Part shown: positions 47,679-51,003 of the stretch, one piece after another | Layout of the letters: the number at the start of each line of letters is the position of its first letter | Numbering within the stretch: position 1 is the first letter of the stretch | Assembly (NCBI RefSeq): GCF_902801725.1 | Contig: NZ_CADCJB010000011.1 | Coordinates: 1 to 64,000, forward strand | Direction of reading: 5' to 3' | From: an uncultured Methanobrevibacter sp. | GTDB lineage: Archaea; Methanobacteriota; Methanobacteria; Methanobacteriales; Methanobacteriaceae | Length of the DNA: 64,000 nt | Position numbers and translations under genes: made by a program | Notes under the pieces: model-generated | Database searches by the model: none | Seen by the model: only the letters and a program-made list of their open reading frames with translations | Told to the model about the DNA's origin: nothing

Positions 47679-47838
47679 ATGGAATATATATATGCGGCAA
47701 TGATTTTGCACAGTGCAGAAAAAGATATTAACGAAGAAAATGTTAAAAGTATTATTGAAGGAAGAGGAAGAAGAAGAGGAAGAAGAAGAAGCTTCTGAAG
47801 AAGAAGCAGCAGCTGGATTAGGTGCTCTCTTCGGATAG
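47679..47838 (+). pseudogene. rpl12: Ribosomal protein L12 (P1), broken by an internal deletion
   Basis: ATG 47679 with GGTGAT just upstream opens MEYIYAAMILHSAEKDINEE, the standard L12 N-terminal dimerisation segment. After SIIEG the frame continues as arginine-rich RGRRRGRRR and stops, while another frame carries the expected acidic tail ending [15 protein letters not shown]. About 50 residues (the rest of the N-terminal domain and the alanine-rich hinge) are missing and the frame is shifted. L12 is essential, so this is probably an assembly artefact; see findings. Confidence 0.9.
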
Positions 47839-47868
47839 ATTTTTTAATCTATCACCTTTCTTTTTTTT
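47834..47868 (+). terminator. Intrinsic terminator of the ribosomal protein operon
   Basis: GATAGATT (47834-47841) pairs with AATCTATC (47846-47853) over a TTTT loop and is followed by ACCTTTC and eight or more Ts. The stem overlaps the L12 stop codon. Confidence 0.7.
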
Positions 47869-48252
47869 ATATTGCTTGTTTTTAAATTAATTTCATAGAC
47901 GACCTATTTTTTTCTTGTTTAAACGATTACTTTTTTTTAATGATTTATAATTCAATAAAAATTTCTAATAAACTCTTTTTTTCCTCGCCAGGCGAAAAAT
48001 CATAATAAAATAGGATTTCATGTTCATATCAACAAAAAAAATAACTGTTCAAAGTAATATTATTTTTTTCGTAAAGATTCAAACAAAATAGATTTATCTG
48101 AACTAATTTTCACCAAGTTTAAATATTATTCAACACTATATAAAGATTAGAGTTTAATTTATATCATTTTCATTTATGTAATTCATCTTTGACTTATGTA
48201 ATAGTGGTACTCTTGCTTATCATTGATAAAACTCAAAATGGGAGAAATTAAT
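47869..48252 (+). promoter_or_regulatory. Promoter region of the secreted hydrolase gene with direct repeats
   Basis: This gene-free stretch is very AT-rich. It holds a TATA box CACTATATAAAGAT (about 48133-48146), predicting transcription start near 48165, and two direct repeats TTATGTAAT at 48174-48182 and 48194-48202, exactly 20 bp apart, just downstream of that start. GGGAG lies 8 bases before the ATG. A short GC-rich palindrome TCGCCAGGCGA lies near 47987. No RNA gene or coding frame is seen. Confidence 0.5.
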
Positions 48253-50814
48253 ATGAAATACTCGGTTTTAATATTGGCTTTAATTTTCAGTTTTGTATTA
48301 ATCTTACCTGCATCAGCAACAGACATTAATGATGCCGTTGTTAATGTTAGTGATGTGACTGTTGATGAAGTCATTTCAGAAAACGAAAAAATTGATGTTG
48401 AATTAATTGCAAACGAGACTTATGGATTTTATGGAAATAATAATAATGAACTGGAAGTTCATGCGGCAGACAGTTATGGAAAAAATGTGGATAATGGAAC
48501 AGTTCTTTTTATTGATGTATTCGGCAAAAATTATACTGCAAACGTGAAAGACGGTCTTGCAAAAACTAAGGTTTTCGTTGGCCAAACAGGCCAGTTCAAT
48601 ATAACATGCAACTATCTTGGAACCAACGAGTACAATAATGCCACTACAACCCTTCTGTTAACAGTTCCAGTTATAAATACAACCTGCAAAAACATTGTTG
48701 CATCTAAATATGGTGATACTGTATATTTCACAGGAAATATGTTGGCAGATTACAGACCATATAAGGGCCACGGTGATTTCAGTGATTTTGAAGAGGTAAC
48801 TGAAGGAATTGTGACTGCATATGTTGATGGCGAAAGATTGGGAACATGCGATGTGGATGTTAACGGTAACTATGTATACATATGGAATACAACAAGAAAT
48901 CTCATCGGCCAGACAATTAACTTCACAGGAGAGTTTTCAAACAGTAAAAAACATTATAATTCATCAAAATTCTCAAAATCATTTACTTTTGCACCGCCAA
49001 GCAATACAACAATATTATATAATATGACTCTTTTGGAAAACAACGGCAAATTGATTAGTGGAATTGTTACAGATGAAAATGGAAACAATGTCATTGGTGG
49101 AACAATCACCATCAATAACAAGTATCAGGCTATTGTTGATTCAAATGGTGAATTTAAATTTTATATTACTGATAAAACACCTCAAAAGGCTCAATATCAA
49201 ATTGGTGTTTTTGATTGGGGATCCAAAGCGGATATTCGTGCTAACATCCCTTTAATGAATGCAATAGAACACACAGAACTAACTGATAAACTTATTGATT
49301 TATGTACTCAGGGAACTCCTTACATCAAATTTGGAAACGGAAACGGAAAAACAGTCGTTGTCAATGTAGGAACTCATGGGGGTGAACTTCCATCACAAGT
49401 TGCTGGATTTAAATTGATTAATCTGTTAGCCAACTATGGTGGTGAGATAAATGGAACAATATATGTCATTCCTACACTGTTCCCCGAATCAACTGCCAAC
49501 AATACAAGAATATACAACGGCACTAATTTAAATACTGTAGCGGATGTTAATGGAACTCTTTCTAATCATGTTGTTTCATTAGCTGTGTCATTAAATGCTT
49601 CAGGTCTTGGAGATTTCCACAATACAAGACATAGTGATAGTGATGTGGGTATTACATGTGCAATGTGTTCTCATAATCCCACACCGGAAAGCTATTCGAT
49701 TGCTAAATTCATTGTGGATGAAACCGGTTATGCTATTTTTGATTATGCGCAGGCAGGTGTGCCTTATGCAGGGGCAATTGAGGACTATGCCAACCTTTTG
49801 GGAATACCTTCAGTCACATGCGAATCACTATCAAATCATAGGGCTGTCGAATATGGTGCCCCGGAAATGTCATTTAATGAAATGCGTGCATTTTTAAGAT
49901 ATTTCGCATTTGATGTTGATAAAATGGTTAAAATTAAACCAGAAGATTCATCTGACTTATCTTTAGAATTTACAAGTCCTTACAATTATAATCCGTCCTC
50001 AGAAAACATATCCTATGAAACTAAAATCATCAATAATAAAGATATTACAGTTGATTACGGTGCGGGCCAATATTTCTCAGTTAAAGTCGTGACTAGCGAT
50101 GGCAAAGAGGTAGGTGCAGGTGCTGTTGTTGCATTCACTATTAATGGCAAAACCACATCAGTGAAAACAGATGATAATGGAGTAGCTAAAATCAAAATCA
50201 CTGAGGTTCCTAATGTCTACCCAATAATCACATCTCACAACAATAAAAACTACACCAACAAGGTCACTGTAAAGTTAAATTTCAAAACATGTAAAATTGT
50301 CAATAATAAAAATATTAAAGTTGATTATGCTGGCGGATCTTACTTCCGTGTAAAAGTCGTTTCAGCTGATGGAAAAGTGGTTGCTAGCGGTGCTCCGGTT
50401 AAATTCAGGATTAACGGTAAAACAACATTAGTTAAAACAGACAAAAAAGGAATAGCAAAAATAAAAATAATTAATGTTCCTAAATACACAATGGCCACCA
50501 GTTTCAATGGCAAAACTTACAAAAACACTGTAACTGTAAAACAGGTGTTGACTGCTTCAAAAGTCACTGTTAAAAAGACAGCTAAGAAATTTACCTTAAA
50601 AGCAAAACTCAAAATCAACGGTAAACTCGTTAAAGGGAAAAGGATAATATTTAAGTTCTACGGCAAAACCTACAGAGTCAACACTAATTCCAAAGGTATT
50701 GCGCAGAAAACCTTTAATAAGAATGTTATCAATAAACTCAAAAAATCCAAAAAATACCCCGTTAATGTGAGTTACATTAAAAACACAATCAAAACAACAG
50801 TTAGTGTAAGGTAG
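48253..50814 (+). CDS. Secreted zinc hydrolase (AstE/AspA-M14-like) with Ig-like repeats
   Basis: An 853-residue exported protein. Signal peptide MKYSVLILALIFSFVLILPASA with a likely cleavage after ASA. Residues 25-330 are beta-rich Ig-like or carboxypeptidase-regulatory-type units. Residues about 360-570 form a metallopeptidase-like domain: KTVVVNVGTHGGELPSQ (His375 and Glu378 as HxxE), GDFHNTRH (His456) and VTCESLSNH (Glu524), the zinc ligands and catalytic Glu of the succinylglutamate desuccinylase/M14 fold. The last 280 residues are three Ig-like repeats and a strongly basic end (KGKRIIFKFYGKTYRV), which may bind the cell wall. Possible pseudomurein or surface-peptide amidase/peptidase; substrate unproved. 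It sits inside an otherwise conserved L12-alaS junction. Confidence 0.78.
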   Translation: MKYSVLILALIFSFVLILPASATDINDAVVNVSDVTVDEVISENEKIDVELIANETYGFYGNNNNELEVHAADSYGKNVDNGTVLFIDVFGKNYTANVKDGLAKTKVFVGQTGQFNITCNYLGTNEYNNATTTLLLTVPVINTTCKNIVASKYGDTVYFTGNMLADYRPYKGHGDFSDFEEVTEGIVTAYVDGERLGTCDVDVNGNYVYIWNTTRNLIGQTINFTGEFSNSKKHYNSSKFSKSFTFAPPSNTTILYNMTLLENNGKLISGIVTDENGNNVIGGTITINNKYQAIVDSNGEFKFYITDKTPQKAQYQIGVFDWGSKADIRANIPLMNAIEHTELTDKLIDLCTQGTPYIKFGNGNGKTVVVNVGTHGGELPSQVAGFKLINLLANYGGEINGTIYVIPTLFPESTANNTRIYNGTNLNTVADVNGTLSNHVVSLAVSLNASGLGDFHNTRHSDSDVGITCAMCSHNPTPESYSIAKFIVDETGYAIFDYAQAGVPYAGAIEDYANLLGIPSVTCESLSNHRAVEYGAPEMSFNEMRAFLRYFAFDVDKMVKIKPEDSSDLSLEFTSPYNYNPSSENISYETKIINNKDITVDYGAGQYFSVKVVTSDGKEVGAGAVVAFTINGKTTSVKTDDNGVAKIKITEVPNVYPIITSHNNKNYTNKVTVKLNFKTCKIVNNKNIKVDYAGGSYFRVKVVSADGKVVASGAPVKFRINGKTTLVKTDKKGIAKIKIINVPKYTMATSFNGKTYKNTVTVKQVLTASKVTVKKTAKKFTLKAKLKINGKLVKGKRIIFKFYGKTYRVNTNSKGIAQKTFNKNVINKLKKSKKYPVNVSYIKNTIKTTVSVR

Positions 50815-50845: not shown

Positions 50846-51003
50846 ATGTTTTATGAGAAATTTTCATACGTGTGCTTTTGGTTCTTTAAAAACTATTTTT
50901 CAAATTATGAATGAGTGATGAAAATATTAATGATATTTCTCAATTAATTATTTATTAAACAAAAAACATATTTTATACTAATAAATGATTAGAACTGATT
51001 TAC

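Follow-up and report, generated by a model that had tools for sequence, protein, structure and literature searches.

A predicted zinc hydrolase of the M14/AspA fold, held between Ig-like domains in Methanobrevibacter, as a candidate pseudomurein peptide hydrolase

What would an exported protein with zinc-hydrolase motifs cut, and does it mean anything that its gene lies between the genes for ribosomal protein L12 and alanyl-tRNA synthetase (alaS)? Both questions are posed by a locus of an uncultured Methanobrevibacter sp. in the window, by which we mean the whole stretch of 64,000 nucleotides analysed (contig NZ_CADCJB010000011.1, positions 1 to 64,000). An earlier note, written from the sequence alone, had proposed a surface-displayed deacylase or peptidase that might trim pseudomurein peptides or host-derived N-acyl amino acids. 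We followed up this proposal by gene order, fold prediction, family phylogeny and the neighborhoods of relatives.

An exported protein at a ribosomal locus

The features of the locus are collected in Table 1. The 853-aa product has a signal-peptide-like N-terminus, MKYSVLILALIFSFVLILPASA; together with the Big domains and the C-terminal repeats, this agrees with the earlier picture of a probably exported, surface-displayed protein whose enzyme domain is flanked by Ig-like segments. The motifs on which that picture drew are present in the reading frame, HGGE at residues 375–378, DFHNTRH at 454–460 and TCE at 522–524. In a full-length model built from seven sequences (pLDDT 58) the flanks were all-beta; the DSSP assignment for the N-terminal Ig part comes from this low-confidence model, with pLDDT of ~65–90 in that part. 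Pfam placed the Big domains and the CarboxypepD_reg-like domain ahead of residue ~303. The PF13620 match that is below cutoff here was above cutoff in the orthologue of genome G076 (E 8.6e-12). The TATA-like box upstream is probably the hydrolase gene's own promoter, and membership of the gene in the ribosomal operon is not obvious.

Table 1. Features of the hydrolase gene, its product and its flanks (positions in the window)
Feature	Position	Strand	Basis
L12 stop and T-rich terminator-like stretch, conserved, intact	47838..47880	+	aligned with two relatives
Archaeal TATA-like box, CTATATAAAG	48136..48145	+	sequence, by eye
Complete CDS, 853 aa	ATG 48253..TAG 50814	+	ORF translation
Signal peptide, residues 1-22	48253..48318	+	by eye: positive start, hydrophobic core, ASA end
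N-terminal Ig-like domains, residues ~50-255	48400..49017	+	Pfam Big_1/Big_3_5; DSSP all-beta in model
CarboxypepD_reg-like beta domain, residues ~256-329	49018..49239	+	PF13620 E 7.7e-6, sub-cutoff
Zinc hydrolase catalytic domain, residues 330-562	49240..49938	+	model, Foldseek, profile vs PDB
HGGE, predicted zinc ligands His375 and Glu378	49375..49386	+	aligned with HGDE/HGNE of AspA-like structures
Arg419, counterpart of AspA-like conserved (transition-state) Arg	49507..49509	+	aligned with TR of 3cdx/2qj8
Asn427-Thr428 at site of NR pair	49531..49536	+	aligned with NR of 3cdx, 2qj8, 3na6, 6twm
His456, predicted third zinc ligand	49618..49620	+	113/113 rows
Glu524, predicted general base, at the site of carboxypeptidase Glu270	49822..49824	+	108/113 Glu
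C-terminal Ig-like repeats, basic	50020..50811	+	tail common to many ORFs of own genome
alaS upstream/promoter region, conserved, intact	50935..51003	+	aligned with three relatives

The C-terminal third varies among orthologues. The 853-aa protein and those of G138 and G116 have Ig repeats there, and that of G076 has a beta-helix and a C1 peptidase; other orthologues end in a sortase-like tail composed of LPATG (as in L079) or LPAAG, a hydrophobic stretch and KRRL or RRRL. The tail of the 853-aa protein found 59 matches in its own genome, the best besides itself at 73% identity, and nearly all lay within large open frames of surface-type ORFs.

Placement between L12 and alaS held up when gene order was compared: relatives have L10 and alaS close together, with L12 just before alaS (adjacency being read in close relatives with an intact L12), so that the gene is an insertion here. 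In the genome represented by L047, whose alaS fragment is 99% identical, the L12–alaS gap contains no gene at all. Orthologues sit at other, unrelated places wherever contigs show their surroundings, and the insertion site would therefore have no functional meaning; we rejected a functional role for the site on this ground and because both flanking control regions are intact. Judged by gene order, the position is a lineage-specific insertion without functional ties to translation. The gap receives other genes as well: in G052 the end of another ORF apparently lies between L12 and alaS (L048:1300-1420). Just upstream of the G082 orthologue is a transposase-like ORF (L035:4617-6149), consistent with gene mobility.

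Compared with relatives, the rpl12 gene itself (47679–47840) has an internal deletion and a frameshift in this assembly: the N-terminal ~27 aa are in frame, and the remainder, as far as the normal C-terminus, is out of frame. A search of the genome found no intact copy. The damage probably reflects the collapse of repetitive GAA/GCA codons during assembly.

Fold and active site of the catalytic domain

The Pfam match of the 853-aa protein to AstE_AspA_cat is weak (E 0.008), with a PF24827 score of 16.2–18.9 bits against a curated cutoff of 25; paralogues in the same genome score 40.5 and 47.2 bits. We take the weak match to be real because all 35 aligned relatives match PF24827 (best 5e-13) and 17 of them also match Peptidase_M14 (PF00246), weakly. 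A family profile found AspA/AstE-like structures in the PDB, namely 3cdx (E 4e-10) and DoeB 6twm (7e-4). AlphaFold2 modeled the catalytic domain (residues ~331–565) from 53 sequences with pLDDT 93 and pTM 0.91, and Foldseek matched this model to carboxypeptidase A4, REP34, DoeB and AspA-like enzymes with probability 1.00, TMq of about 0.51–0.68 and E-values of ~1e-8 to 1e-7 (including 4e-8). The AstE/AspA/M14-like assignment is thus upheld by the fold match and by the relatives' Pfam matches, and comparison with M14 and AspA enzymes gives a predicted zinc-hydrolase fold with conserved ligand residues.

Conservation was counted over 113 aligned rows, which include one false pick (L173:3984-4811). 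His375 is invariant, and position 378 is Glu in 109 rows; position 419 is Arg in 108 and Lys in four; Asn427 is Asn in 112. Zinc binding by His375, Glu378 and His456 can be inferred from this pattern. The equivalence of Glu524 to the carboxypeptidase base follows from motif order and fold, profile alignments stopping short of it. The substrate carboxylate is bound by Asn144-Arg145 in carboxypeptidase A and by Asn70-Arg71 in aspartoacylase. Thr428 stands at the Arg of this pair, so that the set of residues for hydrolysis is complete and the usual carboxylate reader is absent. The earlier remark that the catalytic residues look complete is thus right for the zinc ligands and the chemistry (His375, Glu378, His456, Arg419 and Glu524) and wrong for the carboxylate-binding Arg.

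Could the enzyme domain be a decayed part of an inert adhesin? Ig-repeat architecture is typical of adhesin-like proteins (PMC11532034), and one substrate residue has been lost. Against this, the zinc ligands, Arg419 and Glu524 are conserved, and the subclade with an altered zinc Glu is a different branch (L173, L175–L177). Among unsaturated orthologue pairs dN/dS was 0.12–0.14 for the catalytic domain vs. 0.27–0.30 for the N-terminal Ig part; the catalytic domain is under strong purifying selection and is more constrained than the Ig parts. The relatives do not look like ordinary inert adhesins, and only if they had would the earlier note have been undone on this point; we consider decay very improbable.

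On that different branch, a separate secreted subclade, HGxQ replaces HGxE (L173:1712-2530, L175:1480-2370, L176:1818-2633 and L177:1743-2771). Leu occupies the general-base position in as many rows as this subclade has. Its members are probably pseudoenzymes or have altered chemistry.

Two clades and the wall links of secreted relatives

Of 152 genomes from the phylum, 145 contain the catalytic domain, and all 20 sampled genera are represented. A contig scan with one narrow peptide pattern kept 80 loci, all Methanobacteriales-type or unclassified archaeal by title. Viral contigs searched for the family yielded no relative and no viral lysin, and on this basis viral origin or a lysin role was rejected.

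A maximum-likelihood tree of 112 domains separated a cytosolic clade of 54 from a secreted clade of 58, each on a 100/100 branch, with the 853-aa protein in the latter; for the secreted clade, export was called with a crude hydrophobicity criterion, and contig ends cut off several of its ORFs. The carboxylate-binding Arg is present in 54/54 of the cytosolic clade and absent in 52/58 of the secreted clade. The six secreted rows that keep it are a tandem-partner subfamily (L043, L104, L113, L125, L148) and L178. Three family members occur in the genome studied here: besides the 853-aa protein there are a cytosolic form (L002/L042) and a secreted one of the Arg type (L003/L043).

The cytosolic AspA-like enzyme (251 aa, L042:7948-8700) is conserved across Methanobacteria, and its neighbors are an apparent argG and membrane genes that appear to resemble an Ehb hydrogenase cluster. 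Tandem secreted hydrolases were noted at L104, L113, L125 and L148, and also at L028 and L031; in these pairs the upstream enzyme retains the carboxylate-binding Arg and its downstream partner does not. This suggests two complementary specificities.

Orthologues of the 853-aa protein, at 70–84% identity, were found in 9 of 67 same-genus genomes, its own included. Some pseudomurein organisms have no secreted member: G120 has the cytosolic form only, and several genomes of g3 have none. From this absence and the patchy orthologues it follows that the secreted hydrolase is not essential wall machinery.

Wall links are found among the secreted relatives. Members from family f2 have three pseudomurein-binding repeats (PMBRs) C-terminal to the enzyme domain (E 1.9e-21), and in L039 a PMBR is placed between the Ig repeats and the enzyme domain. 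In g19 (Methanothermobacter-type), the secreted gene is convergent with an adjoining gene for a PMBR protein (E 4.7e-18) in 4/4 genomes examined, with a transglutaminase ~6–7 kb away. In G008 the hydrolase gene adjoins a transglutaminase gene, the two proteins having a 145-aa N-terminal part in common (64% identity), and a PMBR-transglutaminase protein comes after the pair. Pseudomurein is proposed to be cross-linked by transglutaminases (PMC11915815, PMC2812497). These PMBR and transglutaminase links are features of relatives: the 853-aa protein has no Pfam match to PF09373, the pseudomurein-binding repeat, and no transglutaminase was seen next to its own gene. The closest orthologue, that of G076, joins the enzyme to a C1 peptidase of the papain family, and two similar C1-type proteins are encoded alongside, one confirmed by Pfam and the other read by eye. 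A role in pseudomurein turnover has been proposed for the C1 domains of such proteins (PMC2812497).

The earlier suggestion that pseudomurein peptides are trimmed thus finds indirect backing, in PMBR fusions, in PMBR-protein and transglutaminase neighbors, in the common N-terminus and in the papain fusion. Nothing points to host-derived N-acyl amino acids or to a deacylase, and the substrate-carboxylate Arg of AspA, AstE and carboxypeptidases is replaced. A surface deacylase of the AspA/AstE/DoeB type would be in keeping with the nearest solved relatives by sequence, which are AspA/AstE-like enzymes and DoeB; it is at odds with Thr428 in place of the Arg for the substrate carboxylate, with the loss of this Arg in most of the secreted clade, with scores far below cutoff for whole-family equivalog models, and with the wall genes that neighbor secreted relatives. 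We regard it as very unlikely.

The same evidence bears on two further readings. The protein could be a trimmer of carboxypeptidase type that takes the last residue off the pseudomurein stem peptide, a step said to go with cross-linking by transglutaminase. Pseudomurein cross-linking is said to require loss of a terminal residue (PMC2812497), the fold is that of carboxypeptidases, and the G008 hydrolase stands in tandem with a transglutaminase that has the same N-terminal part; yet the carboxylate Arg is lost in most secreted members, and no such neighbor was seen for the gene of the 853-aa protein. Such end-trimming is, in our judgment, unlikely. The lost Arg disfavors both a simple N-acyl-amino-acid deacylase and a simple carboxypeptidase.

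Alternatively, a surface peptidase working alongside papain-type enzymes could digest extracellular proteins or peptides, whether from food, host or bacteria, and so supply the cell with amino acids or peptides, pseudomurein being only its anchor. The G076 fusion, which joins the enzyme to the C1 papain and a lectin-like domain, would fit such a role, as would the C1-type neighbors, the patchy accessory spread and the gut-type genus. However, secreted relatives that branch deeply and belong to thermophilic genera outside the gut have PMBRs or PMBR/transglutaminase neighbors, the carboxypeptidase Arg is absent, and the C1 domains may themselves be wall-directed, following the turnover proposal above. 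Digestion for food seems rather unlikely to us.

Proposed function and comparison with known systems

We favor, at a probability of about 0.55, a zinc hydrolase with the M14/AspA fold that is anchored in the wall and cuts pseudomurein peptides. This reading draws on the export signal, the fold, the conserved site, membership in the secreted clade, the wall links of relatives and purifying selection. The N-terminal Ig stack would project the enzyme domain, and the C-terminal repeats would hold the protein in the wall. His375, Glu378 and His456 would hold a zinc ion, in a mechanism deduced from the fold; Glu524 would activate the zinc-bound water, Arg419 would steady the carbonyl, and an amide bond (peptide or isopeptide) would be cut. 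The most likely substrate would be the peptide moiety of pseudomurein, either in the wall of the cell itself or in that of a neighbor. With Thr428 in place of the Arg that reads a carboxylate, cleavage of an internal bond, of an isopeptide bond or of a substrate recognized in some other way is likelier than cleavage at a simple end with a free carboxylate. The readings considered here overlap, so that their weights need not sum to one, and end-trimming is a variant weighed on its own.

For the secreted clade as a whole we offer a broader proposal, tentatively and at somewhat less than even odds: that its members are dedicated, cell-encoded pseudomurein peptide hydrolases of Methanobacteria, unrelated to Pei, which share their origin with the conserved cytosolic AspA-like enzyme, lost the carboxylate Arg and do the cutting in partnership with the transglutaminases proposed to cross-link the wall.

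So far, few cellular enzymes that cut pseudomurein have been identified. The well-known lytic ones are cysteine endoisopeptidases of phage origin, and in PMC2812497 and PMC11915815 those that cut the wall during growth and cross-linking are uncharacterized. A search of the available papers for a pseudomurein enzyme of AspA-like or M14 type found no description, and the secreted, wall-linked zinc hydrolases would appear to be a previously undescribed family. The family spans Methanobacteria, with a 264-aa secreted member (L179:9761-10555) in G149, apparently Methanothermobacter thermautotrophicus delta-H, a genetically tractable species, so the question of wall cutting would become directly testable. 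Such enzymes could also become new tools for opening methanogen cells or for acting on rumen methanogens.

Among known systems, PF24827 AstE/AspA enzymes, including the N-acetyl-diaminobutyrate deacetylase DoeB (6twm) and the AspA-like 3cdx/3na6/2qj8, are alike in fold, in the HxxE...H ligands and in the positions of Arg419 and Asn427. By comparison, the domain of the 853-aa protein is shorter (~230 aa), its C-terminal part has no sequence match, NR has become NT, and its single-sequence score is below the Pfam cutoff; the protein is also exported and fused to Ig repeats. M14 carboxypeptidases (CPA4 4bd9, REP34 4oko) are similar by Foldseek (probability 1.00, TMq 0.62–0.68) at ~14% identity, but the 853-aa protein has no equivalent of the Arg145 that reads a peptide's C-terminus.

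An exported, pseudomurein-specific Zn peptidase, OG0000169, was listed by Lupo et al. 2025 (PMC11915815). Its candidate in G149 is a short exported protein (L209:6019-6720) with HxxE...H-like motifs, beside a PMBR gene and a Mur ligase cluster, and had no Pfam match. It is probably OG0000169, an equation made from its position near a MobA-like gene. OG0000169 was rejected as a member of the same family; the G149 cluster B Zn peptidase scored 1.7 bits against the family profile.

The 853-aa protein resembles the adhesin-like proteins of Methanobrevibacter (PMC2812497; PMC11532034) in its Ig-like (Big) repeats and in having a shared module at the C-terminus; it differs in its enzyme domain, which is unnamed in the main text of either paper. 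The tail that recurs in its genome resembles the M1-C wall tail of M. ruminantium (PMC2812497). The plan of PeiW and PeiP (C71), a catalytic domain with pseudomurein-binding repeats, is found in some secreted relatives too. The 853-aa protein has no match at E 1 to their Pfam domain, PF12386; PeiW and PeiP are phage-derived cysteine peptidases with a Cys-His-Asp triad (PMC2989375), whereas the 853-aa protein has an unrelated zinc fold.
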